This document shows positions 12,681-57,826 of a DNA stretch of 64,000 bases, one piece after another. Source of the DNA: Agarophyton chilense (lineage: Eukaryota > Rhodophyta > Florideophyceae > Gracilariales > Gracilariaceae); the NCBI GenBank assembly GCA_030374765.1, contig JARGXX010000099.1, forward strand, positions 2,170,001 to 2,234,000, written 5' to 3'. Numbering within the stretch: the stretch's first letter is position 1; each line of letters begins with the position of its first letter. A model generated the notes under the pieces. The model worked only from the letters and a program-made list of their open reading frames with translations, was not told the origin of the DNA and did no database searches. A program made the position numbers and the translations under genes.

Positions 12681-12725
12681 AAATGAGGATGGCCGCGTCG
12701 TCAGGACGCCGTGACCACAGGAGCG

Positions 12726-17490: not shown

Positions 17491-17504
17491 CTGGGCCCAT
17501 AACC
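17491..17504 (-). promoter_or_regulatory. Element C primer-binding site of the half-tRNA(iMet) type
   Basis: Plus-strand CTGGGCCCATAACC directly abuts the LTR edge at 17505. This is the anticodon stem-loop sequence of eukaryotic initiator tRNA-Met (loop CCCATAA). The element RNA is therefore complementary to the internal anticodon arm, not to the 3' CCA end. Drosophila copia is known to prime from a 5' half of tRNA(iMet) cut in this arm; the site here fits that mode closely. Confidence 0.75.
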
Positions 17505-17735
17505 TCTTGGAGAGGATACTCAGATGGAAAAAAGACAAAGAGAGCTGAGGGCCATCGTCCATCAATGATGAACTTGCTGCCCTCATCTTTATAGACATAG
17601 ATAGCACACGAGAGCATATAGAATTACTTTGTATGCTCTCGTAAATAATACAAATACAAAAAAAGGTCAAAACGAACTGTCGTAAACAATACAAATACAA
17701 ACGTGAACATTAGACGAGATTCAAAGTCACTGAGA
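17505..17735 (-). repeat. Element C 5' LTR
   Basis: Upstream LTR in element orientation. Followed on the plus strand by target duplication GATAC (17736-17740). Confidence 0.9.
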
Positions 17736-24212: not shown

Positions 24213-24237
24213 GAGAAGAGCTGTTAATGATCATTTG

Positions 24238-24319
24238 CGTAGAGGGGCGTAGATGGACGTAGATGGACGTAGATGGGGCGTAGATGGGGCGTAGATGGGC
24301 GTAGATGGCAGTAGATGGC
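24238..24319 (+). repeat. CGTAGATGG minisatellite
   Basis: Seven to eight imperfect copies of a 10-11-bp unit (CGTAGATGGRN), just after the EF-G stop. It lies in the 3' UTR or spacer; no function evident. Confidence 0.8.
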
Positions 24320-24730
24320 AAAGGACTAAAGAAGACCACGCGCGGCAGGCGGGAGATTAAAGCCTTGTTTGTGGCTGTGCAGCGGCGCGTATGGGCAGCC
24401 ACACGTGACGCTGCACTCACACGCGCCAAGCTGCAAACGTCCGCAGTGGGGCGCCGCCGAGCCACGCTGACCGCACACGCGTGCGCACCACCACCGCGCG
24501 CCGTGCTGCCTTGCGCTCCACCTTGCGCTCCACCTCGCGCTGTGCCCCGCGCTCCGCCGCCTGCGCTGCTGCGCTGCTGCGCAATCTCCGCCGCTTTGCT
24601 TATTTGCTTGCGCTCCGTTGCTGCCTCGCACACGACCTAAGGCTGTGCACCTGCGTGCGGCCGTTGCGTCTTTACCTCGGCACTTCTCTTCCCTTGGGAG
24701 CCTTTTCACGTCAGTTCCCTCTTGTCTTTT

Positions 24731-24800
24731 CCCACTCCCACTCCCCCTCCCCCTCCCCCTCCCCCTCTCCCACTCCCTCCCCCTTCCCCTCCCTTCTCCC
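24731..24800 (+). repeat. CCCCCT/CCCACT pyrimidine tract
   Basis: About 70 bp made only of C, T and a few A, with repeated CTCCCC units, ending about 50 bp before ATG 24853. Probably 5' UTR or core promoter of the dehydrogenase gene. Confidence 0.7.
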
Positions 24801-24852
24801 GCCGCCGTCGCCACTTCTTCCCTTTTGTGTGTCTCGCTTTCTTGTCTTTACC

Positions 24853-26541: not shown

Positions 26542-27121
26542 GATGACTGGGATGCTCAGCGGGGGATGAAACGCTTTGTAGTGTGGTAATAATCGGAGGT
26601 TAGAGGCAATAAACATCAAGTGGCAAATGTGCGTATCTGTGCTACAGTTGGCCAATGATGCATTGAATGCATTTTTATTCAAGCTGCCAAAAGCATCGGG
26701 TGGTTGTTGAAACGGCTACACTGCAACTTGTGGTCGTGCGCACGGCGCGGGAGTGCGTTCGATGAAGCATCGCTGGCGAAATTCAGAGGCGGCGCCAGCG
26801 TGGGCGGCGCGGGCATGTTATAGGGGCTGTGTCATTCGCATGTGTGCCAGGCTTGCAGAGTGACAGCCACACGTTCAACCATGAGATGTGCGCCATGCAC
26901 GTGACGCTGCACGTGGCGCGCCGCCGCACATATGTCGGCGACCAAGTGTGGTTGGGGCACAAGTCAGCATTTACAAGAAACAGCGCTGGTGGCGAGCCGC
27001 AGCGTGTATGATAATACACGCGCTCTACTCGGCACAAGGAACGCTATTATCTCCGTCGCGCACAACATCAGTCCACGACATTACTCATCGACGTGTTCCA
27101 CGACCAAGTGTAGTGTACCTC
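26542..27121. other. Shared 3' region of two convergent genes
   Basis: 580 bp between the dehydrogenase and aminotransferase stop codons. It holds both 3' UTRs; no other gene supported. Confidence 0.5.
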
Positions 27122-28327
27122 TCAGGCGCCAAAGCCTTGCAACTTGAGCGCGTCCTTGAAGCACGCCAGCAAAACGGCCACGTTGTCCATGCGTGAGTTG
27201 AAGCCCATCAGTCCCACTCTCCACACCTTGCCAGCCAGCTCACCCAGGCCGTTTCCGATCTCGATCTGGTACTTGTCCAGGAAGTGCTTTGTGACTGCCT
27301 TTGGGTCTACGCCGTCCGGCACCTTAACCGTGGTGAGTGACGGCAACCGGTGCTCCTTGGCAACAAGACATTCTAGTCCTATTTCCTCGAGCCCAGCCCA
27401 GAAGGCCTCGGACACCTCGCGGTGGCGCGCCCAACGCTTTTCCAAACCCTCCTCCGCTACAATTGTCAGCGCCTCACGGATGGCGTAGCACATTGAGATG
27501 GGCGCCGTGTGGTGATACGAGCGAGTGGCACCCTTGCCGCCCACAAGATAACTGGCAACCATCTTCATGTCCAAGTACCAGTTCTTGACCTTGTCTTCCC
27601 GCGCCATGAGTTTGTCCATTGCGCGCTTGGAGAAGGACAAAGGCGCCACACCCGGGGGGCAGCTAAGGCATTTTTGAGTACCGGCGTACGCGGCATCCAC
27701 ACCCCACTTGTCCAGGTGACACGGAACGCCAGAGATGGATGTGACGCAATCAGCCACAAGAAGTGCACCGTTGTCATGGCACAGGTCGCCAACACCTTCC
27801 AGAGGCTGGGCGGCGCCGGTGGAGGTTTCGGCGTGCACCAGTGCGACGATGGCGGGCTTGTGCTCTTCAATAGCAGCCTTGATCTCGTCGAAGGAGAAGA
27901 CAGTTCCCCACGGGCGCGAAATCTTGACCACTTCGGCGCCGTAGCGAGAAGCCATGTCTGCCAAACGCAGGCCGAAGTAGCCGTTGCAGCCGATGAGCAC
28001 CTTGTCGCCGGTGGTGACGAGGTTGGCCATGCAGGCCTCCATGGCGGCCGATCCGGTGCCGGAGACGGGGATGGTGAACTCGTTGTTGGTCTGCCAGGCG
28101 TAGCGGAGCAGCGTCTTGATGTCCTCCATCATGGAGATGAAGGCGGGATCGAGATGGCCGATTTCCGGGAGCGCCATGGCGGCGTGCACGCGAGGGTCAG
28201 CGTTGCCGGGACCCGGGCCACAGAGCAGGCGGTGCGGGGGGTTGAGGTGGCCGACGTTGGGCGGCGTGGCAATGGCCGAGCATTCGTAGTCGACAAGCGG
28301 ACCGGTAAGGCCTTCTGTGGAACCCAT
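27122..28327 (-). CDS. Alanine(serine)-glyoxylate aminotransferase, class V PLP
   Basis: 401 residues. ATG 28327 chosen: context GCGCCATGGG is strong, and the open frame extending to 28399 has no upstream ATG. Class V aminotransferase features: GPGPGN (37-42) near the N-terminus, SGTGSAAMEA (about 89-98), HAETSTG (165-171), ADCVTS (192-197, the Asp that contacts the PLP ring), and the Schiff-base Lys219 in GTQKCLSCPPG. It transfers an amino group from alanine or serine to glyoxylate, giving glycine, a peroxisomal or mitochondrial photorespiratory step. The C-terminus is GFGA, so there is no SKL-type peroxisomal signal. No obvious long presequence either, leaving location open. Tail-to-tail with the dehydrogenase. 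Confidence 0.9.
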   Translation of the reverse strand: MGSTEGLTGPLVDYECSAIATPPNVGHLNPPHRLLCGPGPGNADPRVHAAMALPEIGHLDPAFISMMEDIKTLLRYAWQTNNEFTIPVSGTGSAAMEACMANLVTTGDKVLIGCNGYFGLRLADMASRYGAEVVKISRPWGTVFSFDEIKAAIEEHKPAIVALVHAETSTGAAQPLEGVGDLCHDNGALLVADCVTSISGVPCHLDKWGVDAAYAGTQKCLSCPPGVAPLSFSKRAMDKLMAREDKVKNWYLDMKMVASYLVGGKGATRSYHHTAPISMCYAIREALTIVAEEGLEKRWARHREVSEAFWAGLEEIGLECLVAKEHRLPSLTTVKVPDGVDPKAVTKHFLDKYQIEIGNGLGELAGKVWRVGLMGFNSRMDNVAVLLACFKDALKLQGFGA

Positions 28328-28941
28328 GGCGCAGACGAGGTAGACGGTGTGCAAGCCGGCAACAAAAGAAGGAGGGGATGAGGGAAAGAGAACGGCCAAA
28401 CAGGTGGAACTGGCGCAGTGTGGAAGACCGAAGATAGGCGCCAGCGGCAGTGGCGGTGTTTAAGTAGCGCAGATTGACGCGCGCTCGCGAGCACACGCGC
28501 ACCACACAGGCGTGTGTGCCGTCTGCGCTGCCTGCGCCGCCTGCGCCGCCTGCGCGCCACACGTTCCGACGCACCTGCGCCGCGCGTGCTTTGCGCACCG
28601 TTGAGCTTCGCTTGGCCCTCGTGTAAGGGTTAAGTCTTTGTTGTGCGCTTTCATTCGTCTTGCGCGCTCATTGGCGCGCGTGGCGCGCGAGACACGCCCA
28701 CGCGTGACGCGCGCGTCGCCGCCTCTGCCCCGACCGTTTCTATCCGCAGCGCTGCTTGCCCCTTCGTCTCCCTTCCGACAGCGCCGAATGTACCAAACGG
28801 TAGAGCCTTGCTTTTCGCTTGTACCCGCTTGCGCTTGGGGGCTTGCGCTTGGGGGCTTGCGCTTGGGGACTTGCGCTTGGGGACTTGCGCTTGGAGACTT
28901 GCGCTTGGGGACTTGCGCTTGGAGACTAAAGCCTCGTCGCC
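28328..28941. other. Bidirectional promoter region, GC-rich with tandem repeats
   Basis: 614 bp between two divergent starts. It contains a 9-bp (CTGCGCCGC)-type run at about 28527-28557, a CCAAT motif on the minus strand near 28670, dense GCGCGC stretches, and a 14-bp tandem repeat (28828-28925). Open frames here are products of the repeats. Confidence 0.5.
28828..28925 (+). repeat. 14-bp x 7 tandem repeat upstream of an orphan gene
   Basis: Seven head-to-tail copies of CTTGCGCTTGGGGN, with a G/A variable end (units at 28828, 28842, 28856, 28870, 28884, 28898 and 28912). It ends 16 bp before ATG 28942. Unit length is not a multiple of three. Five units carry four or more consecutive G on this strand, so structure in the 5' UTR or promoter is possible. 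Confidence 0.9.
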
Positions 28942-33009: not shown

Positions 33010-33924
33010 TGTAGAGCAACGCCCAGTTAGGGGATACTTGAAGATGCAACTCATACAATGAGGATTGAACCCTCCGAGGGTTATGACTATGATCCCCTCT
33101 AAGGTGTGCTGAGGTGGCACTGTTTTCTGGTTAGAATTCGCCCATAAGGGAAGATTCGGATGGCCCATGGTTGGATTGGCCCCGTGATACACGTGGCTTA
33201 ATTTTGGCACCGATTTTCGGATATTTGTTAGAACGTTGGACTTTTGGGCCCTGACAGTGGGATCTCCACGTGTATGGCCCTGAGCAGGTGTGCACTACTG
33301 TAGAGTTTAGTTAGTGGGCCCTACTTAGGGAGATGAGATCGGACAGTCCGAAGCTCAGAGTAAATGGTAACCAAGGTTGGTCTTCGATACCTTTAGAGGT
33401 TCTTCGTCGCCATCGTTTCGGCCTTACAACCCGGAACGGGCTCTGGTTAGCAACGCCTGCGTAGGGACACGACTCCACTTGGACAGTGCCCAAGTTTGGG
33501 TTCCGTGCAACCACCCCCTTGGGACCGCTCAGACGACCTGCGTGCACGATACCCCGTGGGGGTTCTGCTTACTTGTTGCGTGCTTTTTGTGTTTCCTTTC
33601 GAGGACAGGTTTTCGCCCCTGTATTGGGTTTCTTTTGTTGTTTCGCCCCTTTTCTGGTTCTCGGGTCCGGTGCCTGTTAGTGCCCGACCCTCGCCCCTTT
33701 TTTCCTCTTCGCCGGATTTTCCCCCATTCTTTGGGATACCCAGACCCATTCCCGACCCAACGGTTTCTACCCCTCACCTCCGTCGGTACTGCCGGAATCC
33801 CCCGTGGGAGTTACACCCCACACTACGGGTGGAACGGAGGGCTCTGTCTCTGAGTCTGCCTCCCCCCGGGAGCAAGGCTTCGAACACCTTGAGAGCACTT
33901 CCCGTCGCCGGGTTTTGCTCCACA
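33010..33924 (+). repeat. Element A 5' LTR (915 bp)
   Basis: Pairs with 43846-44760 at identical length. Ends CCACA. A candidate primer site follows, starting TGGTCCCCCGAAC at 33927; the tRNA was not identified. Confidence 0.93.
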
Positions 33925-34152
33925 AGTGGTCCCCCGAACTTAGAATCCGTTCTCGAACTTTTGGGTTGGTCATCCACGTGTTGGAATATCTCTTGGAAGA
34001 GGAAGCACCGTCGTGAAGATTTGTTGTAGTGGTCCCCTTTGGAAAGGGTGGAATTGGTTTTTATTTTTGTTTTGTGTTACGTCATCCGTTCTCCGGGAAT
34101 CTCGTGATCGAATTTCATCGTTACCCCGAATCGTCGGTGTCGTTTCTGCAGC

Positions 34153-41265: not shown

Positions 41266-41505
41266 ATGGAAGAGAAGCCCGAACAGGGAAAAGTGTACCC
41301 GCAGGAATTCGTTATCGATCGCATCGTGCGTCACATCTACACCCCCGAGGGAGAAGTCCGCTACCAAGTCCGATGGTACGGATTCTCGCCTGATGAGGAT
41401 ACAGTGGAACCCATTGAGCACCTTCCGAGGTCTAAGGTTTTATCCTATCAGCGACGCGCTCGGGTAACCTTGCCTCCAAGTCTGGATCGTGCCCAAGTCG
41501 GGTAA
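41266..41505 (+). CDS. Element A chromodomain
   Basis: About 80 residues with the chromodomain pattern YPQEFVIDRIVRHI, YQVRWYGFSPDEDTVEPIEHL: aromatic positions Y, W and Y/F plus the W-x-x-W-x-x-x-x-like TVEP-E-L end. Chromodomains at the integrase C-terminus define chromoviruses and steer integration to marked chromatin. Element B carries the same module. Confidence 0.8.
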   Translation: MEEKPEQGKVYPQEFVIDRIVRHIYTPEGEVRYQVRWYGFSPDEDTVEPIEHLPRSKVLSYQRRARVTLPPSLDRAQVG

Positions 41506-41907: not shown

Positions 41908-43764
41908 CTACGGAAAGCCCGAGGAGGGACCCGCCCCACCGTTGGGATTCTGACCCTGATGGTACGCCGAGGCGAAAGCCAACATCTGGCTCACATCCGT
42001 CATACCCGGGGGAATCGGAATGCCCGCGTTCACGAGGCCTTGTCGCACACTATCCGCTTGCGGAGTGGCAACCGGCGCCTGCGCAAGGGTGTTCACACCC
42101 CACCCGGAGGGAGCAGATGGACCGCCACCGGATGCATTCGCCGCCGCAGCTGAGGTCGTTCCCACTGGTTGGAAGGGTGGAGATGGCTCCACAGGGAGTA
42201 CTCCACTAGGAGCTGGCATGTCGTTATCCAACGCTGGATCGTCCAGGTCTACTGGAGGCTCGTACTCGTAATCGTCGGTATAAATGAACCCCGTCGGGGG
42301 TCCCACTGGCATCGGTCGAGGCGAGTCCATCAGCGCCCGTGCTTGCGCCGCGCTGATGCGAACCCCTTCGAAGGGATTGTAATAGACCCAGTTACCGGAG
42401 CCCGGATCGTACCGGCCAAGAGACTTGTCTCGCGCGGATCCTTTCCCTGCGGGCTGATTTTCCACTGGAACTCGATCCCATTGGGTGTTGTCGATCACGT
42501 CCAAGATTGGATACAGGTCCTGCACGCTGCTGGCCGAACCCAACGCTGTGACAAGTTCAATCTGACGCATGATGGTCCGTAGCATCGGAGGAATATACCA
42601 GATACGGAAATGGTCATGAGCATCCCAGAGGAGGTGCGCCGCTACGCGGGCTGCCCACTCGGCTACAACGAGGGCCCAGTATCCCGAGTTCGGGTCGTGC
42701 ATCAAACGAGACCCTATATAGTAGATGTACGGGGGCAGTTCAGCAAAGCACTCTCGGGGGACTTCGACCTTACTCCACCAAGCTGGAAGGGGCACGCATC
42801 GCCCAACCTTCGCCGTGTTACGGATACGCTCCAGTTCCACGTGAGGATACGGGACAAGGAACCCGAAACGGGAGCGCGAGCGGCGCTCGAAACGCACGCG
42901 TCGATCGAACCCATACTGGGTAAACTGCCGTTGAAGGTACTTGAATTCAGCCCGAAGGATGGGACGACTCCATTGGAGCATATCTTCTCGGAGAAGATAA
43001 CCCGGTCCGCGGAACTCGGCTTCGGGAAAGGCTGCCAGCTTATCCCCGTAGGAGACCTCACCGTACGTGCGGTAATAGGCGACATCGAACCCGTACTCCG
43101 AGGGAACCAGATGGTCAAAGCGTGACCTCTCCAATGGCTGATAGGCCAGAGCCGCCATCGCTGCGCGCACCTTGTCCAGGGACTCCCCGCGACCACGGTA
43201 AAGATACTGAGGCTCTATGGCTACCCGCGCCCTCCAATCGGGAGAACATACAACCTCGACAGGTAGGCCACCCGGCAATAAGCCGTTTTCCACGTAGGAG
43301 TCGATGAGCTCATCGTCGCGAACCGCTGTCGGATGGAACTACGGAGCGCGGGAATATATCCCCGGATCGGTAAGGGGACTCCACCTTCGAAAGGATTCGT
43401 TTGAGATCCAACCTCTTGAGTTTGCTACCAAGGGCATCGCATGAGCGGAGTTCCACGCCACCGCGTTAATGTCCAAATCCTCCTGAGGATGTCGGTTGCT
43501 CGCCGAGGCGGAAGGTTCGGTACCTGACGGAGCTGCATACAAACCGGATAAATATCCACCCTGCTGGGGAGTTTCGTTGTCCGCCGGCGCAGAGGCCGAC
43601 GGCCCCGAGAGTGGGTTGATGACGTATGGGTTCATTCCCTTAAGAGGGCTGGTTGATACTGCAGTTGCGAGAAGTTGCTTATCGCCGAAAGTCGGAGGAG
43701 TAGAAGAAAGCTGTACCGACGTGCCGGTTTTGTGGCGATCCTCAGAAGTGGTGAAGGACCCCAT
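41908..43764 (-). pseudogene. Element A antisense ORF region, unknown conserved protein
   Basis: The minus strand holds a long frame (main part about 460 residues) of non-simple protein, read opposite to gag-pol. It is homologous to the element B antisense protein. Shared blocks include RPILRAEF, RFERRSRSRFGFLVP, WWSKVEVPRECFAELPP, DPNSGYWALVVAEW and an LW...D..R.W..P..LR stretch, about 45% identical over about 145 residues. An N-terminal GYLSG(L) motif and a Gly/Pro-rich ending (NPNGGAGPSSGFP) are also shared. First ATG near 43764. Looks broken (about one break). No recognised domain, membrane segment or signal peptide. Confidence 0.75.
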
Positions 43765-43832
43765 TGGGAGAGCAGTATATATAGTGACCGGAAAGCGAGA
43801 CACCCGCGGCTCGGAATGTTCTTCCTCGTCTT

Positions 43833-43845: not shown

Positions 43846-44760
43846 TGTAGAGCAACGCCCAGTTAGGGGATACTTGAAGATGCAACTCATAGAATGAGGA
43901 TTGAACCCTCCGAGGGTTATGATTATGATCCCCTCTAAGGTGTGCTGAGGTGGCACTGTTTTCTGGTTAGAGTTCGCCTATAAGGGAAGATTCGGATGGC
44001 CCATGGTTGGATTGGCCCCGTGATACACGTGGCTTAGTTTTGGCACCGATTTTCGGATATTTGTTAGAACGTTAGACTTTTGGGCCCTGACAGTAGGATC
44101 TCCACGTGTATGGCCCTGAGCAGGTGTGCACTACTGTAGAGTTTAGTTAGTGGGCACTACTTAGGGAGATGTGATCTGACAGTCCGAAGCTCAGAGTAAA
44201 TGGTAACCAAGGTTTGTCTTCGGTACCTTTAGAGGTTCTTCGTCGCCATCGTTTCGGCCTTACAACCCGGAACGGGCTCTGGTTAGCAACTCCTGCGTAG
44301 GGACACGACTCCAATTGGAGAGTGCCCACGTTTGGGTTCCGTGCAACCACCCCCTTGGGACCGCTCAGACGACCTGCGTGCACGATACCCCGTGGGGGTT
44401 CTGCTTACTTGTTGCGTGCTTTTTGTGTTTCCTTTCGAGGACAGGTTTTCGCCCCTGTATTTGGTTTCTTTTGTTGTTTCGCCCCTTCTCTGGTTCTCGG
44501 GTCCGGTGCCTGTTATTGCCCGACCCTCGCCCCGTTTTTCCTCTTCGCCGGATTTTCCCCCATTCTTTGGGATACCCAGACCCATTCCCGACCCAACGGT
44601 TTCTACCCCTCACCTCCGTCGGTACTGCCGGAATCCCCCGTGGGAGTTACACCCCACACTACGGGTGGAACGGAGGGCTCTGTCTCTGAGTCTGCCTCCC
44701 CCCGGGAGCAAGGCTTCGAACACCTTGAGAGCACTTCCCGTCGCCGGGTTTTGCTCCACA
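43846..44760 (+). repeat. Element A 3' LTR (915 bp)
   Basis: Partner of 33010-33924, followed by target duplication ATTGT. Confidence 0.93.
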
Positions 44761-44765
44761 ATTGT

Positions 44766-45731
44766 GGTCAGAAGCTTTGTACGTATGAAATCAAGTATTA
44801 TAAGTTCAACTGAGTGGAGTACTGACATGTGTGTTACTGATCCTTATTTGGATATGCGACTTTACAAGATGTGTTGCAATTTAAGGTATCTGCGGAAAGG
44901 AACAACATCATCACGTTGTTGTTGTTTCTTTTCTACTTTTCTATTAAGAGGGCTGATGAATGGCAGACGCATTAGCTAAACACGGTGGTGGACGGCACGG
45001 TGGACCCATGGCGCTCCCTACCGTGCCGTCAGGTGATGGGTTTGGACGGTTCCCACGCTGCCGAGGAGAAGGTAGTGAAGTAGATTAGAATGATTAGAAA
45101 CCTGCTCCAGATGGAGAGTAGTGAAGTTTTGTAATCATCACGAAACTAGCGTAAGTGGAAAGATGGGCAGTTTAAACTGCAGCGCGAATCTAGCGCGTTT
45201 GAAAAAGTACCAGTAAAGACTTACAAAAGAGAACTAGCGCGGATGAAATGTATGCTACAAGATGCTACGGCGAAGAGACTAGAATGACCGGAATAAGTTT
45301 TAGTTAATGGTTTACAAATAAACTAGCGGAACCTCGCCAAAAATCAGGCGCTTTGTTAATGGAGATGCAGGGAATTTTTCAAAAAACTAACTGCGTGTCC
45401 CTCTGTAAAAACTAACGGAACCTCGCCAAAAACTCGCATTCCGGAGACACTGACGAAGGGTAGGTGGGACGGTTTTTGGAGCTGGGAGTAGGGGGGTTGA
45501 TGGGGAAGAGGAAAAGGAGGAAGGAGGGTTTGTAGCGGGGATTGCGGGGAGTGGGGAGGAGGAGGAAGGGTGCAATGGGACGGTGGAAGAGACCAGGTCA
45601 TATTGTGGATGGTGGTTTTGGGAGGTATCATTGTGATATGGGTTGGTGTGAGGGTATTTGAGCCAGACCTTTGTCATTCACATCTAGCGTTTGGCATCGA
45701 AATATAGACGGTACACTAGCAGGGGCTTCTA
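44766..45731. other. Spacer between elements A and B, no supported gene
   Basis: Contains a short block reading MADALAKHGG at about 44958, reminiscent of the end of a LINE RNase H, but too short to call. A 21-nt near-identical pair lies at about 45318-45342 and 45406-45431 (CGGAACCTCGCCAAAAA). A G-rich tract lies near 45480-45570. Last five bases (45732-45736) are the element B target duplication CATTC. Confidence 0.4.
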
Positions 45732-45736: not shown

Positions 45737-46658
45737 TGAAGTGCAACCCTCGTGAGGGCCGTTTTCCAGGACTTGGTTGTTTTTCCGCCTCGGGCGATAC
45801 TTGTGAGATCTATGAGTAATACCGCTACTAGCGGGCTGGCGTAGCCAGGTGTATACGCGTTGTACGCGAAGTGCACTGGCGGCCGTGCGCCGTGGCCCCG
45901 ACTCGGGTGTGACTTACCCACGTGTACCACGGGTGGCCCAGGACAGGTTGGCACAGCATAGCTGGATATTTCTCTATTTATTTAGCTTTATTACTCTAGG
46001 TTAGGGAGCTCTTTACAGTATTCTACACTATATAGTGCCAGGGCGATCTCGCCCTGACACTCAGTAAACCTCCCCAACCAGGGTTCTTGGCTCTAAGTCT
46101 TTTTCCGCTTTCGCGCGTCTTCCACACTCTACGGAGGTGAAGCCGCGTTACTAACGGTAGACTTATCCACCCTGCGTCAACAGGAGACTCACCGCTGTTA
46201 GCGTGTATATCCTTCATACCACTGCCATGTTCTCGCCCCAGTATTGGGTTTGCTACATATTTCTTTTGGCTCTCGTGGCCCATGCCCCCGATCGCCCCCA
46301 CTGGGTGGTCCCCCCTTTATCGCTTACCCACTCTCGTGGTAGCTCCCCCTTTTGCTTTGTGGTTGGTTATTCGTGCCGCTCGCGCGGGTGCCGCGCGCCG
46401 GCTTACCGTGGTTACCGCCACTCCTGTGGGTGCATTACTCGATCTCGAGACTTGCCCACTCCCGTGGAATACAGCTCATACCTGGTCTGCTCCCTTCTAG
46501 CATCTCGCACTCTCCCCGCTTGGCGTGCCGGTGAACCTCGGCCTTACACCCCGACTTAGTCGTGTTCACTCCGGAGAGGCTCCGTCGCCGTGCTACCCTC
46601 CTTGGAGGAAGACTCGGACATCTTCGTGTGTTTCTGCCGCCCTTGGCGTTGCACTACA
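45737..46658 (+). repeat. Element B 5' LTR (922 bp)
   Basis: Pairs with 56839-57821. Ends GCACTACA; a candidate primer site starting TGGTCTCCCGAC begins at 46662, resembling that of element A. The tRNA was not identified. Confidence 0.93.
46026..46037. promoter_or_regulatory. Palindromic TATA element in element B 5' LTR
   Basis: CACTATATAGTG is a perfect 12-bp palindrome containing TATATA. In this LTR it would drive the sense genomic RNA; gag ATG lies about 780 bp downstream. Confidence 0.5.
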
Positions 46659-46818
46659 AACTGGTCTCCCGACTTAGAAGGCTAGGGGGACCTGGTTTGG
46701 TTGTTTTTCACATTGCTGTGCTGTCTTCTCTCGTCGAGATCTGCTTTTCAATTTCTTGGTTTGGACCCACTTGGTGGATGCTTTTGTTGTCCTATTCTTA
46801 GTGGTCAACGCTACAACC

Positions 46819-49077
46819 ATGTCACGACTGCCGTCGGAAGCGGAACCCGCGATCACGCGGAGCCGTTCCGTCAATGACGTGGTGCCTGCGGACCCTGGAA
46901 GGGTTCCCCCGCCGTTACCTCAAGCCGCTCCGAAAGGCAAGAGTAAGGGGTCGAACTCCTCCAAGAACAACAAGCTCCCGCCTAAGGCGTCGAAGAATGG
47001 ACCCAATTCTGGTGCTGGACCGGCCACTGCCGTGGATGACCCGGCTCCTGCCGACGAAAAGGCCCAGAAAAACGAGTTCCACATCGACACCAACTCAAGT
47101 GTGAGGCAGCAGATCCGCGTAATGCGGGAAGCACACAATGCCTTCGTGGAAGAGTTCGAAGCCCTGCGTTCCAGGTGTGATGGCTCTTCTATGAAGGAAG
47201 TGGTTGACGACCTCCGCTTGTTGCGGGCGGACGTCAACACCCTGTTGGAATGTTTTGGTGGTCCCGCCGCATACGTGAAAGGTGTCGAGACCCGATTCAA
47301 TCGTGTTAGCGCCCGTCTCCAGACGTTAGAGCAAACCATCTTGATGGAAGACGTCCCGGAGAAGCCGGTTGCTGTGTCGCACCAAGCGAAACACGAGAGG
47401 AAAAGGGACGATACCAGCCGTCGGCGTGGAAAGCGTGACAGCGATGACTCGGACTCGTCGAACTCCTCACGGTCGTCGCGTGGCTCTCACCATTCAAATG
47501 GGTCGGACTCGTCAGATTCGTCTTCTGAAGATGGCCATCGCAGGCGTTCATCTCGTTCTAAACGGTCGTCTGCCACCCAATGTGTGATCCGCGCCCGCGA
47601 GAAGGGAAGGAAACACTCCGGGTTGAAGGAGCTGAAATGCACCAACCCCCTGTACAAGAAGTGGGTTTCTTACCGATACTATCGGCTAGAGAACTCCTCT
47701 TTGGATCGCACGCCCCGTGGCACGGGTAGAGTGAAGGATTGCATAAAGCGTATGCAACTGTCCCTCAGGAACCAGAACTTTTCGGGAGAAGACCCCATTT
47801 TGGTGTTGGATTTCCTTGCGAGGTTCGTCGCCGAAGCGGATATTCTCGGTATGACCGAAGGACAGGCGTTTATTGCACTCCCGTACTTTATGAAAGGCCT
47901 CGCCGAGGATCAATACAACTCTGTAAGAGGTTCGTCTAGAGCCTCCAAAGGAGGGGTAACCTGCTGGCCAGAAGCAGTACAACACCTCTTGAGGTCCTAC
48001 GCCACTAATCACGCGATTCAGTCGGCCATTCTCGCTCTTCGCGATACGCGCCAGAAGTCTGGAGAATCGGAAACCGAATTCTCGGTGCGCCTGAACAAGG
48101 CTTTCCACCGTAGTGGGAACGTACACTCCGCCGGAGAGCGCTGCACCATGTTCATCGATGGACTGAACCCCGCTATCCGAACACTCGTGGCCCGTTACCG
48201 GGAAGACCGAAGGAAGACCACGTATGTGGAGTTGGTCCAACACGCGCAAGCGGAAGGTGACGCTTTAAGAGCTCGTGCCCCCGGACACAGGTCGCGAACC
48301 TCCAAGGCGTTGGTGATGGAAACAAAGTCGCCATCCCTATCGCTGGTTGCGATTGAGCGCCCCCAACAGGAGTATGACAACGTACACTTCGCCCGAAGCG
48401 ATATCCATTCGATCCCGACAACCGAACTACCGTCTACGACGGACGACTCATATGACACGGCCCAGGATGGACCCCTGCTGTACGCAGACTCTTCCCGTGT
48501 TCACGGACCTCACATCCCGTATTCAAACGGTGCGCTCCGACAGAGTCGCCCTGGATGGAAGGATACCCGCCAAGCGGTGAAGTTCACGGATGCTCGCTCC
48601 GGTTTGCAGCCCTCACGCCCGGGACTCATATGCCACATATGCTACGAACACGGTCACATTTCACCGGACTGTATCCTCACCATGAGGGAAGTAGCCCGAG
48701 TAATAGGTAATTATGAGGCGTTGACCCCAGTGGAAAAGCGGATTGTTCCGATGACGTCGTATCTTCGAGCGAAGATCGATTTTCCACGGAGTATTCCGGA
48801 GGCGAAACCGCGCAATGCATTCCTTTACCCTGCCGAGCAGGCTCCCGACCATCGCCCCGTTCCTTCAAACCCCGCCGCTGGCGCCCCATTGCTAGTGGTT
48901 CAGGATTCTGAGGCCCCGCCCCAGGCGGATGGGACTCAGAAAAAAACTGATTTCGGGAGTCTCCCCTTCGGGAGAGGCGTCCCCAACAGTGAGGTTGACG
49001 ACGCCCGAGGCGTCTCCGCCTCGCTCCCCGGTCACAATCCTCACGAGGAAACAGGCCGTCTCAGACGTGGACTCTGA
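46819..49077 (+). CDS. Element B gag
   Basis: 752 residues from ATG 46819 (ACAACCATGTCA). Same architecture as element A gag: basic/Pro-rich N-terminus, coiled-coil-like helical segment, Ser/Asp/Arg-rich stretch, capsid-like region (YRYYRLENSSLDRTPRGTG, ILVLDFLARFVAEADILGM, CWPEAVQHLLRSYA) and a CX2CX4HX4C knuckle (CHICYEHGHISPDC) near residue 605. The 3' end overlaps the start of pol. Confidence 0.88.
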   Translation: MSRLPSEAEPAITRSRSVNDVVPADPGRVPPPLPQAAPKGKSKGSNSSKNNKLPPKASKNGPNSGAGPATAVDDPAPADEKAQKNEFHIDTNSSVRQQIRVMREAHNAFVEEFEALRSRCDGSSMKEVVDDLRLLRADVNTLLECFGGPAAYVKGVETRFNRVSARLQTLEQTILMEDVPEKPVAVSHQAKHERKRDDTSRRRGKRDSDDSDSSNSSRSSRGSHHSNGSDSSDSSSEDGHRRRSSRSKRSSATQCVIRAREKGRKHSGLKELKCTNPLYKKWVSYRYYRLENSSLDRTPRGTGRVKDCIKRMQLSLRNQNFSGEDPILVLDFLARFVAEADILGMTEGQAFIALPYFMKGLAEDQYNSVRGSSRASKGGVTCWPEAVQHLLRSYATNHAIQSAILALRDTRQKSGESETEFSVRLNKAFHRSGNVHSAGERCTMFIDGLNPAIRTLVARYREDRRKTTYVELVQHAQAEGDALRARAPGHRSRTSKALVMETKSPSLSLVAIERPQQEYDNVHFARSDIHSIPTTELPSTTDDSYDTAQDGPLLYADSSRVHGPHIPYSNGALRQSRPGWKDTRQAVKFTDARSGLQPSRPGLICHICYEHGHISPDCILTMREVARVIGNYEALTPVEKRIVPMTSYLRAKIDFPRSIPEAKPRNAFLYPAEQAPDHRPVPSNPAAGAPLLVVQDSEAPPQADGTQKKTDFGSLPFGRGVPNSEVDDARGVSASLPGHNPHEETGRLRRGL

Positions 49078-52000
49078 ACACTTTGGTGTTCTACGTCGAC
49101 CGTGGAAACGTGTTCTTAACCGCCGGTTCCAGGATAGAGTCTTAGTAATGGCCAAGCGCAATTACAAGGTTTATGCCGACCTTGGCCTTTCTACCCAGTT
49201 TATGGTTCGAGTCCTTACTGTTTTGGACACAGGTGCTGGTCCGAATTTCATCGTGGAGTCGCTGCTGCCCCCGCCCTTGCGGTCTCAGATCCGCCTTGGC
49301 GTGGCGCCCGACGTCGCGGACGCGAATAACAACCCGTTGTCAACGGTTGGAACCGTCGCTGTCGTCGTTCGCTTGGGCTCCTTCGTGGTGAAACTCGTCT
49401 TTATTGTATGCCAGAAATTGGCTGCCCCCATCATCTTGGGATGTGACTTCTGTGACAGATTCGTTGACGCCATAAGGCCCCGCTTAAAGCCTGTTGAGAT
49501 GGAAGACGGCTCGTCGGTCCCGATTGTCCGTCGTCCGCTGCGGCGTGCCTCCAAGAAGCACGTACCGCTCCCCGCCGCGCAGGAACCTCCACCCGCTTCT
49601 CGGGAGTCTACCAAGCTCCGCGTGGCTGCGTCTGTCCGAATCCCGCCAGAGTCCCAAGTATGGGTGCGTGTCACTTCCCGTCAACACGGTTTACGAGTCA
49701 TTCAGACTCACTCATCTCTGTACGATGGATATCAACTCGCTGTGGCGAATGGAGTCGCGCAGATTGTCCCAGACAAGCCGTTCATCGTGCTCGTTGCCAA
49801 TCTGGGCTCCACCCCCCAGTCACTGGTGAAAAACCAACTTATTAGATCGGTAATGCCTCACCCCACCGCGATGGTCCCCACTAGGCTGACCGCTGCCGAA
49901 GTCCTCGGTCTCGTTCACTCTAAGGAGGGGGAGGAAGCTGCCGTCCAATCACCGAATGATTCGGAATCGCAACCTGCCGAAACAGAAAAGAAGCCCGTTC
50001 CGACGAGTTACGACCGGGTAGACCCCGTGAAAGAACTCGAGAAACTCGACCTCGGTCATGTACCGGAGTCACACCGTGAAAGTCTGCGTGAGATGTTACC
50101 GGAGTTTACCACAATGTGGGATGGCTCTCTTGGTGTGATAAATACAACGGAACACCGGATAGATTTATTGCCGAACACCCGACCGGTGGCTCAACACCCT
50201 TACAGGGCAGGCCCCAAGGCTCGAGAAGAGGAACAGTTCCAAGCGGACAAAAGGCTCCGAGCTGGAGTGATCGAACCGGCTTAGTCACCGTGGGCATCCC
50301 CAGTGGTACTGGCTCCGAAACCCGATGGGTCCTGGCGCTTTTGCATAGACTACCGTCGCTTGAATGATGTTACCGTCAAGGACGTGTATCCGATCCCACG
50401 AATAGATGAGTACATCGACTCTCTCGGCACTGCTACCGTGTTCACGGCTTTGGACGCCAATTGGGGATATTGGCTGGTTCCCGTTAGGGAGGAGGACCAA
50501 GATAAGACTGCGTTTGTCTGTCACTCGGGACTCTACCGTTTCAAACGGATGCCTTTTGGTCTAACCAATGCTCCCGCTACCTTTCAGCGTGCTATCGACA
50601 TTTTGTTGGCCCGCTTTAAGTGGCATACTTGCCTCGTCTATTTGGACGATATCATTGTATTCTCAGACAATCTGGATGACCATCTCACCCATGTCAAGGA
50701 CATAATGACCACGCTACGTGATGCTGGAATAACCCTCAAACTGAGGAAATGTGAGTTCTTTACCGATACTGTGAAGTATCTCGGGCACATTATCCGTCCT
50801 GGACGTGTAATGATCGAGGAAGCTCGAGTGAGGTCCCTTCGCAAGGCGAAAGAACCCGCTACCCAGACGGAACTGCGCTCCTTTCTAGGATTGGTCAACG
50901 TCTACCGACGGTTTATCCCTAACTTCGCTGACATCGCGGCCCCCTTGAACGCGCTTCTGCGGAAAGGTCAACCACCTAAACTGGACCCCTTTACGTCCGC
51001 CCAGACGGATGCTTTTAACTCCCTTAGGGAGGCTGTCACATCAGCACCGATTCTATCGTTACCGAAACCCGGACTACCGTTTTCCGTGGACACGGACTCT
51101 AGCGACTACCAGGTAGGCTGTGCGCTCTTTCAAACTACTCCCGAAGGAGAACGCAAACCCATTGGGTACTGGTCACCCTTGCTCAATGTCCACGAGCGGA
51201 ACTACTCCGTGTCGGAGAAGGAGTGCCTCGCAGTTGTGTGGGCCCTCTCTACACTCCGCCCCTACCTCATGGGTGTGCACTTTACCGTTTACACGAATCA
51301 CTAGTCCCTACGATGGCTCATGACCATCTCGGAGCCGTCAGGCCGCTTAATGCGTTGGAGACTCCGCCTCGTGGAATATGTCTTTGAAGTGATCTACAAG
51401 AAGGGCACTCAGAACGCGCAAGCGGACGCGCTCTCGCGTTTACCCACGAATGGGGAAGCTCTAGCCGTCGATGACGAGGATATAACTTGCTTCGTCGTAG
51501 ACGATGGAACACCGGGGGACCCGGATTGGTTACACGATAAATGGAACGAAAGCCCGGAATCGGATGATGATATTGACGCATTGCTCGTCTCGGACGATTC
51601 AGAGAAACCCCCGCCGGGTAATTCTGTGCCGATACCGCCGGAGGAGATGGTCAGAGAACAGCAGGGTGACCCCTTCTGTACGAAGATTCGCGCCTGGCTT
51701 AATGGCGGTGCACAACTCCCTTTCGAGGTGAACGATCTTGGATACCTCGTCAGGACGGTTCAGTCATCCCCACAAGTCGTGGTGCCGCATACTCTACAGT
51801 CTAGAGTTTTGCATCTATCGCACTATGCGAAACTTGGTGGACACGCCGGTGGACGGAAGCTCTACCTCACTTTGCGAAGGAATTTCTACTGGCCCGCCAT
51901 GGCGGTGGATTGATACGCAACGGTGCGGTTTTGTACCGAATGTGCTAAGAATCGGGTGAAACTTCGCAAGTACTCAACGAAGTTGAAACTATTCCCGGCA

Positions 52001-53110
52001 CGGGCTCCTCTCGAGTTTGTCGCCATTGACATCCTCGGTAAGCTCCTCACCACACGACGTGGACATAAGTTTTTACTCGTTATCACGGATCGTTTCTCAA
52101 AACTGGTTCGGACCGTACCTCTACGGAAGATATCCGCTTTCACGGTTGCACAAGCATTTGTAACCCATTGGGTATTCGTCTACGGCCCGCCGGTTAATCT
52201 TCTATCCGATAACGGAAAACAGTTCGCATCGCGATTCTTCGAGGACGTGTGCAGGATTCTTGACATCAAGAACCTGTTCACAACGACCTATTAACCCCAG
52301 GGTAATGGGCAAGTGGAGCGGGTTAACCGAACGCTATTAGCGTCTCTCCGTTCTTACGGGGCCGACCACCCAAAGACATGGGATTTATATACCGACGCCT
52401 TGACGTTCGCGTACAATACGCAGGTACACCGTACTACGGGCTTGACTCCATTCGAACTGGTCTTGTACCGCCCTCCGCCCGCTGTCGTGTTAGAACCCCA
52501 GCCCACGCTGGATGCGTTCCCTTCCGTAAAGGATTATCGCCACAGGTGGAAAGAGTGGCTTACGAAGCTGATCCCGCTCGCCCGAAGCTCGATGGCTCGT
52601 GCCCAAGCCGCTTACAAGCGTGATTTCGACTCTCGCGTATGCGGTGAGGCCCCGCCAATCAAAGCCGGTGTCTTCGTCTTCGTCCGTAAGGAGTACTGGA
52701 ACCCTGAAAAGGAAAAGAAGCACAAGCTTTCTTCCGTCGCGGACGGTCCTTACAAGGTCATTTCGGTGAAAGACGACACCATCGTGGTGGAAATTGTCAA
52801 CGCTCATGAGCGGATCTCCCGCGACCGCGTTGTACTCGCCCCGCCACCGACGTTGGAAGTAACCGAAATGGGTCAACAATCCCTCTCTGAGGATGATGGT
52901 GCTCGGCACACAACAGTGGCTCAGCCCACTGCCGTGGTTTCCAGACCTTCTGCGTTACCACACCCTACCCGGGGACTCTCTGACTTGCCGATCTTATCGG
53001 ACCAAGGCCAGAATGGCCTCTCTTCTCTCACGCCACGGCGCGGTGTCTACCCCCGCCCATTCAACTACTCCCCATGCCGCTCCGTCTCAGGAGGGGGAGG
53101 AGGCTCATAA
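48930..53110 (+). pseudogene. Element B pol region: protease, RT, RNase H, integrase
   Basis: Protease VLDTGAGPNFI near 49225; RT with YLDDIIVF near 50640 and FGLTNAPATFQRAI near 50560; RNase H DTDSSDYQVG near 51090; integrase core FVAIDILGKL near 52015 and LLSDNGKQF near 52200, with the GNGQVER block near 52305. Highly similar to element A pol in order and sequence. Several breaks; fossil. Confidence 0.85.
48961..48974 (+). promoter_or_regulatory. Hairpin at the gag-pol junction of element B
   Basis: CTCCCCTTCGGGAG: the same 5-bp stem as element A (36194-36207), with the loop changed. Confidence 0.4.
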
Positions 53111-54459
53111 CTCTCGTCGAGAGACGGAAACCGCTTCGTCGCGTCATGACAACCGTGGTGCACGGACTCCTGGACACACCAGCAAGAACAACGGTGATCC
53201 GGACGTCCCGTCTACCGACGTGCCATCTCCGCATTTGCGCGCTACAGCCGTTGCTGAACCCTCTATGGGAAGCGCCACTGCATCTGCGTCTGATCGCACT
53301 CCCCACGGGGACCCTACTCGACAGGACGCACCACGTAGTGGAAACCCTCTCGCCGAAGCGAAACCGGAATCGTCGCAGGATGCTGCTCGCCCTCGCGATA
53401 TTGGACCGGCTATGCCGTCGAGAGTTGACCCGCAGCCCGTGGGTCACGGTTCGTCGACACCAGCTACGCTGGAATACTTAGAGCACGCACTCGCAGGCCC
53501 CTCTAGGCCGAATCGTTCGGAAGTGGTCCCTCGTATTGTACGGCAGGACACACCGGCTAAGCCGGGCAAGCGCACCGTAGCAGACGGGATATTCACACCC
53601 AGCACGCTTGATGCTGGTTCACAACCCGCGCGCAGTGGCGGAGGCACTCCAAGTGTCTCGGTTGACCCCGATAGCGTTGTCGAAGGTGCACCGGTCACCC
53701 CGGAGAGTGTGCCCGTCAAGGACGGAAGCACCTCGTCGCCGAGTGAAGTTGAACCCTCGCAAGGGATAGTTGAGGACGAACTCGCTCCCCGCAGAGGTTC
53801 CTCGCCGCACACTTCGCCGCCCGTTGGTGAGGAAGGCACGGATGATTTGGAGTTGCACGCCCGTCGCGGTACTTTGTCGCCCAAGTGAGCAGACATACCG
53901 GCAGCGCCGTTGCACACGCCCCCACTTGAGGAGGCAGAACGTAGCACGGCGCGGAGTACTCCCAGCCATCAGCCCGACGTATCACGTGACCAGACGACAC
54001 CCAGCTCGGGAGATACGCCAATCAACGCCTAAGGCGGCTCACCCGGCAAGGCACGACGCGCCGTGATGAAACCGCATCCCGCGTCAAGTCCAGCACCGTC
54101 GCGACGGATTTCACCCCGACAACTCGCGGAACGCGACCGCGAAACCCAGCCTTGGGATGAGTCCGCGTTCCCCCGAAGGGTGGCCTCGGCGCGAGAACTC
54201 TCGGAAAGCATTCTGACCCAAAAACTGGGAGAATTGCCCCACGGGAAGGCCTCCGGCCAAAGCCGTCGAACTGACGCTCTTCGTCATGACGCCTTGGCGG
54301 AAGCAGCCCGCCAAGCGGCCAAGGCAACCCGGAACCCGGTTCGTTCCCCTACCCAGGGCATGGAAAGGCAACGCCAACCCATGGACCCCTCGGGGGAAGG
54401 GCACAGTAGCCCACACGCACCTGCGGACGTACACCGGTTTGGTCCGGTGACGCGTACAC

Positions 54460-54719
54460 CGCAAGGGCGGGAAGTCTACGAGAAGGAGTTCGTGGTCGAC
54501 CACATAGTGGAGCACTCATACCATCTGGATGGTTATATTCAATTCCTCGTCTGTTGGTACGGTTTAGGGCCCGAATGGGATTCGGATGGGCCGATGGAAC
54601 ATCTCCCACGTTCGAAGGTGGTGTCATATCACCGCAGAACGCGTACGAGAATCCCTGCATCGGTTGTTAAAGCCCAGATGGGATTACACCCACCTCGGTG
54701 GAAGAGAAAAGAGAAGTAG
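54460..54719 (+). CDS. Element B chromodomain region
   Basis: Reads GREVYEKEFVVDHIVEHSYH, then a FLVCWYGLGPEWDSDGPMEHLP block: the chromodomain pattern, homologous to the element A module (shared HLPRSKV-SY). Preceded by a long Pro/Ser/Thr-rich linker from the integrase (about 52900-54400). Likely C-terminal tail of the integrase polyprotein. Confidence 0.75.
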
Positions 54720-54865: not shown

Positions 54866-56803
54866 TCACGGGTTCGGCTCACCGCCCCCGGGTTGGTTAC
54901 CTCCCTGGAGGCGGGTGATCAAGGCCTCGCGCATCGCGGCAACATCGCCACTCGCTGCGTTGGCCCCCAGCCCCACCTGTCGCAGGAACTGGGAGATCAC
55001 GGCCGCTTGACCCGCCGGAGCGGAGCTCGCATCGCCTGGGGTGGACGCCCCACCACTTGGGAGATTCACCGGTGGAACCGGAGGTGGTCCAGCTACCGCG
55101 TACTCCGACCCAGCCCCCGCGGGGTTATCCAAATCCACGTAAGGCGTGGCTGGCGTCCCCGCGTTATAGGAACCTTCCGCTTCGGATCCCTCGACCTCCG
55201 CCTCGGCGTACGCTTCCCCGTCGTCTGGTTCGGTGTCCACCATTGGATCGTCGCCGTCGTACACGTGGTAATATTCATCCGCGTCCACGAAACCGATCTG
55301 ATGCCCCTCGGGGATATGGCGTGGTGCAAACCGGAGTTCGTTCGCTTCCTCCGCGGAGATTTCGTGCCCTTCCCAATGGTCAAAGTATACGAAATCACCT
55401 CCCAAGGGAGTACGCCTTCCTGGTGACAGGTCCTGACCCCGGCTACCCACGGTGCGCCCGCTTTGTTCAATCGGAACGGTGGTCCAGTCCAACTGGTCGA
55501 GGTAATCGAGAAGACCCGCCACTTCTTCGGCGTTGGTTACTCCACCAAGTGGGATGCTCAGGTCCAGGCTGCGAATGGCGGACCTCAACTGGAACGGGAG
55601 GAACCACAGTCTGTACTGGTCATACACCTCCCAGAGGATGAACACCGCCGCGCGGACTGTCCATTCGGTAATCACCACGGACCACAGTCCGGACTCGGGA
55701 TCCTCGATGGGGTACGAACCGTAATACGTGATGACTGGTGGCAGCTCGATGTAACAGCCCCGGCAGGCCTCAAGGTTCGACCACCACGGTGGAATGAGGA
55801 CATAGCGACCCCGTCGGTCGGCCACGCGAAGGCGTTCGATCTCCACGTTCTGAGACGGGACCAAATACCCGAATCGGGATCGTGCTCGACGCTCGAAGCG
55901 GATCAGGGCGAGGAAGTTGGCCCGCGCAAGTCGACGCATGTAGCGGAATTCTGCCCGGATAATCGGTCGCGTCCAGCACATGGCCTCTTGCCGTGCTATC
56001 GGGATGCCCCTCCACGAGAGTGTTTCTAAACCCGCCAGGCGGTCGACGTAACCAATCTCACCTTGAGTGCGGTAAAGCCGAATGTCGGTGCCGAGACCAT
56101 CGGGGATGGGATATTCGAAAGGAGCCCGGCGAAGCCGTTGATGGCCAAGAAGGACGAAGGCCGCATGAGCGGAAGCCGAGGTTTCACTACCCCTGCGCGC
56201 CACAGCGTGAACCGGAACCGCTACGCGGCGTCGCCAATCCAACGAAGTTGTCGCCACGGCCGGAATATCGCCCGGAAGCATCCCGTTTCCATCGGTGTAC
56301 ATCGCTATGAGCGCTTCTTTTAACACTGCAATCGGGTGGAACCACGGCGCAAGCCGGAGAACGGACGCATGATGCCCAGGATGGCGCCCGACAAGCATGT
56401 CGTAGGGCGGCCACCCTCTCGGGGGGAACATTCCGTACGGAGCAGCAGCCGCGTTCGTGATAGGAATCTGGGGCGCAGCCGATGACGCGCTTTGCGGAAG
56501 CGGAGCCGACCGGAAGCCGGAGAAGTACCCCGCAGGGAGACGGTTGGGTTGATTGTTTTGGTTGCTCATCGGTGAGCGAAGAGGCCAGATGACCGGAAGA
56601 GGAGACCGGCGAAGCGAAAGACGATGCCGAGGAATCGGAGGACTGGCACGCAAGGATGCGGATTCGGTCGAGATGGAACGTTGAGAACGGTTGTTGCCAG
56701 GAGACTGGAGTTTGGCCGCACTGCGTTTGTTGGCATCGGATGAAGTGGATCCCAGCGAGCTGGTTGCACTCTTATGCATTCGTCTCGGCGCGTCGCCCAC
56801 CAT
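54866..56803 (-). CDS. Element B antisense ORF, 645 residues, unknown conserved protein
   Basis: Opens at ATG 56803, 36 bp inside the 3' LTR edge, and runs antisense to gag-pol, stopping about 150 bp past the chromodomain end. A second in-frame ATG at 56569 (MSNQNNQPN) is an alternative start. N-terminal 80 residues basic and Ser-rich; GYFSGF motif near residue 93; a folded, Trp/Arg-rich core of about 250 residues (DWRRRVAVPV through LDQLDWTTVP). An acidic, then Gly/Pro-rich tail (EAEVEGSEAEGS; GGNQPGGGEPNP) follows. The core is about 45% identical to the element A antisense protein over 145 residues. No transmembrane helix or signal peptide, so not envelope-like. Function unknown. Confidence 0.8.
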   Translation of the reverse strand: MVGDAPRRMHKSATSSLGSTSSDANKRSAAKLQSPGNNRSQRSISTESASLRASPPIPRHRLSLRRSPLPVIWPLRSPMSNQNNQPNRLPAGYFSGFRSAPLPQSASSAAPQIPITNAAAAPYGMFPPRGWPPYDMLVGRHPGHHASVLRLAPWFHPIAVLKEALIAMYTDGNGMLPGDIPAVATTSLDWRRRVAVPVHAVARRGSETSASAHAAFVLLGHQRLRRAPFEYPIPDGLGTDIRLYRTQGEIGYVDRLAGLETLSWRGIPIARQEAMCWTRPIIRAEFRYMRRLARANFLALIRFERRARSRFGYLVPSQNVEIERLRVADRRGRYVLIPPWWSNLEACRGCYIELPPVITYYGSYPIEDPESGLWSVVITEWTVRAAVFILWEVYDQYRLWFLPFQLRSAIRSLDLSIPLGGVTNAEEVAGLLDYLDQLDWTTVPIEQSGRTVGSRGQDLSPGRRTPLGGDFVYFDHWEGHEISAEEANELRFAPRHIPEGHQIGFVDADEYYHVYDGDDPMVDTEPDDGEAYAEAEVEGSEAEGSYNAGTPATPYVDLDNPAGAGSEYAVAGPPPVPPVNLPSGGASTPGDASSAPAGQAAVISQFLRQVGLGANAASGDVAAMREALITRLQGGNQPGGGEPNP

Positions 56804-56827
56804 CGCAGATGTCGTACTCGCGCCTCA

Positions 56828-56838
56828 GGAGGGGGATA
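56828..56838 (+). promoter_or_regulatory. Element B polypurine tract
   Basis: GAGGGGGATA-type purine tract (AGGAGGGGGATA) directly before the 3' LTR at 56839. Confidence 0.75.
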
Positions 56839-57127
56839 TGAAGTGCAACCCTCGTGAGGGCCGTTTTCCAGGACTTGGTTGTTTTTCCGCCTCGGGCGAT
56901 ACTTGTGAGATCTATGAGTAATACCGCTACTAGCGGGCTGGCGTAGCCAGGTGTATACGCGTTGTACGCGAAGTGCACCGGCGGCCGTGCGCCGTGGCCC
57001 CGATTCGGGTGTGACTTACCCACGTGTACCACAGGTGGCCCAGGACAGGTTGGCACAGCATAGCTGGATATTTCTCTATTTATTTAGCTTTATTACACTA
57101 GGTTAGGGAGCTCTTTACAGTATTCCA

Positions 57128-57139
57128 CACTATATAGTG
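57128..57139. promoter_or_regulatory. Palindromic TATA element in element B 3' LTR
   Basis: Same CACTATATAGTG palindrome as 46026-46037. On the minus strand it lies about 325 bp upstream of the antisense ATG at 56803, so it is a candidate antisense promoter. Confidence 0.45.
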
Positions 57140-57371
57140 CCAGGGCGATCTCGCCCCGACACTCAGTAAACCTCCCCAACCAGGGTTCTTGGCTCTAAGT
57201 CTTTTTCCGCTTTCGCGAGTCTTCCACACTCTACGGAGGTGAAGCCGCGTTACTAACGGTAGACTTATCCACCCTGCGTCAACAGGAGACTCACCGCTGT
57301 TAGCGTGTATATCCTGCATACCACTGCCGTGTTCTCGCCCCAGTATTGGGTTTGCTACATATTTCTTTTGG

Positions 57372-57493
57372 CTCTCGTGGCCCATGCCCCCGATCGCCCC
57401 CACTGGGTGGTCCCCCCTTTATCGCTTACCCACTCTCGTGGCCCATGCCCCCGATCGCCCCCACTGGGTGGTCCCCCCTTTATCGCTTACCCA
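57372..57493 (+). repeat. 61-bp tandem duplication in element B 3' LTR
   Basis: Two copies of a 61-bp unit (CTCTCGTGGCCCATGC...), with a partial third match at 57494. The 5' LTR has a single copy. Confidence 0.9.
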
Positions 57494-57826
57494 CTCTCGT
57501 GGTAGCTCCCCCTTTTGCTTTGTGGTTGGTTATTCGTGCCGCTCGCGCGGGTGCCGCGCGCCGGCTTACCGTGGTTACCGCCACTCCTGTGGGTGCATTA
57601 CTCGATCTCGAGACTTGCCCACTCCCGTGGAATACAGCTCATACCTGGTCTGCTCCCTTCTAGCATCCCGCACTCTCCCCGCTTGGCGTGCCGGTGAACC
57701 TCGGCCTTACATCCCCACTTAGTCGTGTTCACTCCGGAGAGGCTCCGTCGCCGTGCTACCCTCCTTGGAGGAAGACTCGGACATCTTCGTGTGTTTCCGC
57801 CGCCCTTGGCGTAGCACTACACATTC

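Follow-up and report, generated by a model that had tools for sequence, protein, structure and literature searches.

Antisense protein-coding gene in chromodomain-bearing Ty3/gypsy retrotransposons of the red alga Agarophyton chilense

A chromodomain-bearing lineage of Ty3/gypsy retrotransposons in the red alga Agarophyton chilense carries a protein-coding gene antisense to gag-pol, and the gene is kept by purifying selection across at least four divergent families. The analysis started from a window of 64,000 nucleotides (contig JARGXX010000099.1 of assembly GCA_030374765.1, positions 2,170,001 to 2,234,000 of the forward strand), within which all coordinates below are counted. The window contains copies of two of these families, termed elements A and B. 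An original prediction, made from the letters of the window, had described the antisense gene in both; that observation is confirmed and is stronger than first described.

An antisense gene beside the 3′ LTR in four families

In element B the gene occupies 54866..56803 on the minus strand, begins with ATG and comprises 645 codons according to the list of open reading frames (ORFs). As had been predicted, this single frame opposite gag-pol takes up the whole interval between the chromodomain ORF (end 54719) and the 3′ long terminal repeat (LTR; start 56839), with gaps of 146 bp and 35 bp, respectively. The other five frames of the stretch are interrupted by 6-22 stops each, and the antisense frame is the single open frame of six in one representative each of families A, B, C and D; its openness is therefore beyond chance.

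The homologous frame of element A lies at the same place, as originally stated, and the similarity, put by eye at about 45% over about 145 residues, extends further, to 40% identity over 357 aa (E 3e-82). In the window copy of A, a premature stop splits the gene into an N-terminal part (43339..43803, minus strand) and the core with the C-terminus in the same frame (41908..43293, minus strand), while copies of A elsewhere in the genome have antisense frames open for 640 codons. The DNA of the two antisense genes gives no blastn match, though the proteins align. The A and B LTRs had been said to align poorly, and indeed blastn finds no match between them longer than 23 bp. Parts of gag and pol of the two elements are still alignable as DNA at 66-69%.

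Two chromovirus families had been credited with the gene; both stand, and the number grows to at least four with the gene in the same place and orientation. Family C consists of places 57-71% identical to the query P0001, and family D was seen in three fetched copies (L062-L064). Integrase is found on the strand opposite the antisense frame in L061 (family C) and in L062 (family D).

The 80 Mb genome (135 contigs) was searched with the antisense proteins. Scored places number at least 68 for B, at least 92 for A, at least 71 for P0001 (beyond which 54 further rows are C-terminal pieces) and at least 98 for P0002, the last repeating places of A and B, among others. Counted among the matches listed, the matched stretch is free of stops at 25 of the 68 B places and at 52 of the 71 P0001-like places.

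The antisense gene and the chromodomain are convergent, in tail-to-tail arrangement. Thirty A and thirty B loci, those ranking highest in similarity to the query protein, were fetched, and the chromodomain lies on the opposite strand and on the expected side in 60 of 60. Among the matches listed, an opposite-strand chromodomain is present within 3 kb at 63 of the 71 C places, the other 8 being without a listed partner, and a same-strand chromodomain occurs neither at the 60 fetched loci nor at the 71 C places. These copies were located through the antisense protein itself; seen from the chromodomain, 63 of 150 C-type places have an antisense match, both counted among the matches listed. Six stop-free chromodomain places of family C (C16, C71, C12, C75, C86 and C98) are situated inside an uninterrupted frame of 1847 codons that is presumably gag-pol; this suggests recent activity of the family.

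Selection on the antisense frame

The comparison between families employed a GY codon model over a grid of omega, the ratio of nonsynonymous (dN) to synonymous (dS) divergence, with 540 codons of 10 open sequences picked from 66 loci. The alignment was built on the protein in the antisense frame, and the test does without the similarity-picked choice of 30 A and 30 B loci. The likelihood of the antisense frame peaks at omega 0.2, where the log likelihood (lnL) is -8808.4 as compared with -9069.5 for omega 1 with the tree unchanged (2 delta lnL 522), so that the selection for the antisense product proposed originally is borne out between families. The omega peaks of the five other frames are 1.5, 2.5, 1.5, 0.3 and 2.5. 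The value of 0.3 belongs to the sense frame f1, in which 208 stop codons had to be masked across the 10 rows, and it is a shadow of the antisense constraint, since the third positions of f1 coincide with those of the antisense codons.

Synonymous sites are saturated among the four families (dS mostly about 2 or more): between-family pairs have dS of 1.70-3.77, with one pair beyond estimation, and dN of 0.39-0.76. Differences between B and D (L062) at codon positions 1, 2 and 3 amount to 0.36, 0.30 and 0.62, and thus fall mostly at position 3. In gap-free columns, antisense dN among B, C and D is 0.40-0.46 against 0.34-0.39 for the C-terminal part of integrase, whereas pairs involving A show 0.69-0.75 against 0.37-0.42. 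Conservation therefore resembles that of the integrase C-terminal part in B, C and D, and the antisense protein has evolved faster on A's side.

Pairwise omega within C and within D is 0.46-0.53, which alone is no proof of selection. Variants within A and B were taken from 28 of 30 and 29 of 30 loci, two and one having been left out for other lengths. Private (singleton) variants give omega of 0.63 in A and 0.91 in B; the B singletons (synonymous excess p 0.13) are near neutral and likewise no proof on their own. Shared variants give omega of 0.34-0.80, with 72 of 159 synonymous against 47.3 expected (p 2.5e-5) and 1 stop against 5.8 expected (p 0.02); this test is biased, because the loci were picked by protein similarity, which favours synonymous differences. 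A ratio near 1 among copies had been named in advance as evidence against the gene. This holds in part for the private variants, nearly neutral in B, and does not hold for the shared ones, which are poorer in amino-acid changes and stops. Such a within-family pattern is mostly what would be expected of dead insertions.

The protein, its start and its possible role

The antisense protein family is, by sequence comparison, new to the libraries searched. Pfam gives no match, the sole row being TetR_C_31 at E 0.29 in 1 of 10 members, which was taken as noise. PHROGs has no match for the 3 proteins scanned, the PDB searched by sequence returns 0 matches, and viral and prokaryote collections yield 7 and 30 pattern matches, 0 of them confirmed. 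A 10-member profile run against 5.8 billion proteins found 3 (8000 candidates scored): one from Gracilariopsis chorda (BWQ96_03215), one from Agarophyton chilense and one on a Logan contig. The statement that no known family matches thus holds for these collections, save for the three red-algal or Logan proteins. In contrast, the polyprotein of family C has 1291 matches at E 1e-10 or better; the 120 listed include five Chondrus crispus proteins (46-51%) and an A. chilense protein (54%). Pfam Chromo is present in many of the nearest relatives by pol. The gene may either have been gained in the Gracilariales branch or be diverging too fast for word searches.

Four regions, with limits of our own choice, can be distinguished in the B protein. 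The N-terminus (aa 1-130) is basic and rich in Ser, Thr and Pro, with 17 K/R and 3 D/E in 130 residues; the core (aa 131-515), with a mean majority fraction of 0.72 as compared with 0.55-0.63 outside it, accounts for most invariant positions, Trp, Arg and Glu being frequent among them; the linker (aa 516-600) is acidic, with 0 K/R and 17 D/E; and a short C-terminal motif follows (aa 601-645). The acidic stretch is present in representatives of all four families, while the basic N-terminus is clear only in B and D. The maximum of the Kyte-Doolittle 19-residue mean is 1.44 in the window copy, in line with the predicted lack of a membrane segment, and 1.08-1.74 over the 10 aligned members, none of which has a convincing membrane segment on this scale; the value of 1.74 comes from a stretch of L062 past the usual frame end, and L066 reaches 1.61. 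An envelope-like protein was considered and rejected, as the gene is antisense and has no convincing membrane segment.

The start codon of the B gene (56801..56803, minus strand) is ATG in 28 of the 30 fetched B loci. An in-frame stop is located 7 codons upstream in 28 of 30, and both features occur together in 26 of 30. At the aligned Met, 22 of 30 A loci have ATG, 2 have another codon and 6 are out of frame. The A. chilense gene model P0003 begins at the Met of family D. From the core of the polypurine tract to the antisense ATG the distance is 33 bp in B, 79 bp in A, 45 bp in C (L061) and 33 bp in D (L062). As only 35 bp separate the ATG of B from the LTR, an unspliced transcript would start in or beyond the 3′ LTR, and any other would have to be spliced from further off. 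The position of the ATG at 33-79 bp from the polypurine tract in all four families, together with the upstream in-frame stop in B, points to a promoter inside the 3′ LTR. When the sequences upstream of the ATG are aligned across the four families, the polypurine tract and a GCCA-TGT block stand out. In all four families (L061 for C, L062 for D) the block, GCCA(C/T)(C/G)TGT, recurs at a distance of 227-270 bp from the antisense start codon, and C has it once more at 203 bp, even though the A and B LTRs are otherwise unalignable. The block may serve as a promoter element for one strand or the other. TATA-like sequences occur at -333 in B and directly before the ATG in A, and none was found within 700 bp in C or D. 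A sigma-70 promoter scan of the LTR gave no match and is inapplicable to a eukaryote.

Antisense accessory genes are of a known general kind. An open frame in the position found here, opposite gag-pol and flanked by pol and the 3′ LTR, is the arrangement designated aORF-3R (eORF-3′R) and represented by gene23 of maize Grande, rice RIRE2 and TRP28 of Silene Retand. The named examples belong to the Tat clade of flowering plants, and Retand is a non-chromovirus (PMC11963269), whereas the elements here are from a red alga and share with chromoviruses the reverse transcriptase (RT), RNase H, integrase and chromodomain, in the Ty3/gypsy order of pol with the chromodomain at the integrase C-terminus. 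TRP28 has a Transposase_28 domain (PF04195) and Ogre proteins have the plant mobile domain (PF10536); 0 of 10 members match either, the former at E up to 10. Genome searches for both domains found none, with controls equally silent, so that they prove little. The promoter of Grande is in the region upstream of gene23 (PMC7264820), as opposed to an ATG tens of bases from the LTR edge here. Outside plants, Boty-like elements of Botrytis cinerea carry brtn, an extra antisense gene in an LTR retrotransposon (Boty, PMC7264820; brtn, PMC8365987); this fungal gene could be compared by description only, and the homology search named no fungal protein. HBZ of human T-cell leukaemia virus type 1 (HTLV-1) is likewise antisense beside the 3′ LTR. 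Its expression is driven from that LTR, and it reduces expression of the sense strand (PMC10186651). HBZ comes in spliced and unspliced forms and contains a bZIP domain, for which the antisense proteins here give no match. In a survey of green plants, extra ORFs occur mainly in OTA non-chromoviruses and SIRE, and in the excerpts of that survey no conserved antisense gene of a chromovirus was met (PMC6317226). The literature searched, mostly open-access, holds no description of this protein family, nor of its chromovirus, red-algal setting.

With a probability just short of even, we read the product as a nuclear trans-acting regulator of its own family, expressed from an antisense promoter in the 3′ LTR. 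In this proposal, a promoter suggested by the anatomy of the LTR would drive the gene, and the protein would act in the nucleus, bind nucleic acid or chromatin and adjust sense transcription or silencing of its family, as HBZ does in HTLV-1 and as has been proposed for Grande and Retand. It draws on precedent and composition: the nuclear location of gene23 (PMC7264820, PMC11963269) and the antisense HBZ (PMC7264820, PMC10186651) on the one hand, and the acidic stretch in four families, the basic N-terminus in B and D and the lack of a convincing membrane segment on the other. Several observations weigh against it. A and C have only a weakly basic N-terminus, comparison with Pfam, PHROGs and PDB sequences recognises no domain for DNA binding or the nucleus, the upstream alignment shows no antisense TATA common to the four LTRs, the aligned start is not in frame in 6 of 30 A loci, and the regulator role is drawn by analogy. 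A broader form, which we put forward tentatively and consider somewhat less probable than not, is that of a family of trans-acting proteins new to description, encoded antisense and with a conserved core that resembles no known family in sequence, which would have persisted while a red-algal chromovirus lineage radiated and whose elements would have LTRs firing both ways; it would be an independent counterpart of HBZ beside an integrase chromodomain, controlling silencing or expression of the family.

It is possible, but unlikely, that the protein assists the particle or the pre-integration complex as an accessory factor, serving packaging, nuclear entry or integration beside the chromodomain. 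Its constraint in B, C and D is close to that of the integrase C-terminal part, the gene stays next to the chromodomain, and a review names help with the nuclear entry of that complex as a possible role (PMC7264820); yet the sequence gives no sign of relatedness to gag, capsid or integrase, and it would be odd for a particle protein to be supplied from an antisense transcript of its own. Doubtful to a similar degree is an anti-silencing factor that counters the host. In a genome of 80 Mb, more than 200 scored places of families A, B and C could attract silencing, and dN between A and B (0.70 versus 0.42 in the integrase part), fast yet constrained on A's side, would fit an arms race; however, acceleration along a single branch is weak evidence, and the searches revealed no resemblance to a described family. 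Improbable is a passive passenger that was acquired from the host or some other element and serves no element function. An unsequenced or fast-evolving gene could be its origin, no source being known outside these red algae, but the gene is kept under constraint in four families with saturated synonymous sites, and no single-copy host homolog was recognised among the matches listed, which were not gone through one by one. There is very little probability that the antisense RNA counts and not the protein, the frame being open only by accident: LTR elements have antisense transcripts that can function at the RNA level (PMC7264820) and the private variants of B are nearly neutral, but omega is about 0.2 in exactly the antisense frame, the start codon is retained in most B loci and the protein is alignable where blastn gives no DNA match. 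An RNA role may exist in addition to that of the protein. A captured sense-strand or env-like gene read backwards, which the apparent omega of f1 and a sense frame (f0) open for 411 codons in the C representative might suggest, is rejected with a probability close to nil, because all sense frames are counted broken in the four family representatives, f0 having 6-9 stops in those of A, B and D and an omega that peaks at 1.5, and f1 owing its value to masked stops and shared third positions.

One protein family is kept in the same place in at least four families over saturating synonymous divergence, which makes the role of such antisense genes directly testable, and this in a group on whose mobile elements the literature searched has little to say.

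Anatomy of the elements and the rest of the window

Element B extends from its 5′ LTR (45737..46658) to its 3′ LTR (56839..57821), both placed by LTR alignment on the plus strand, with the polypurine tract (56824..56838, plus strand) adjoining the latter. The 3′ LTR exceeds the 5′ LTR by about 61 bp, and overlapping LTR alignments suggest one extra tandem unit. In this copy, gag (46756-49077), RT/RNase H (50303-51304) and the integrase pieces (51320-51913 and 52313-53110), all on the plus strand, are spread over several separate frames between 46756 and 53110. The chromodomain tail-to-tail with the antisense gene (54453..54716, plus strand) scores 15.5 bits with Pfam Chromo, under the cut-off of 25.1. 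Element A, with LTRs at 33010..33931 and 43846..44769 (plus strand, LTR alignment), has a chromodomain at 41278..41502 (plus strand) that scores 35.5 bits and is above the cut-off. The chromodomain of C (17.2 bits) is under it, and that of D was located by tblastn to B (65%), its L062 copy having stops.

Apparent host genes lie between elements at 19872-28399 and comprise an EamA transporter, elongation factor G, an FAD-linked oxidase and a class-V aminotransferase, the last with one other genome match only, which is weak. At 7877-12971, a pair of 246-bp direct repeats (99%) surrounds a frame of 1151 codons (8126-11581), which has no Pfam match at 0.001 and shows, by eye, a zinc knuckle and copia-like gag-protease-integrase features. 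A Copia element with RVT_2, an integrase core, copia gag and repeats at 98% is situated on the minus strand at 13052-17663.
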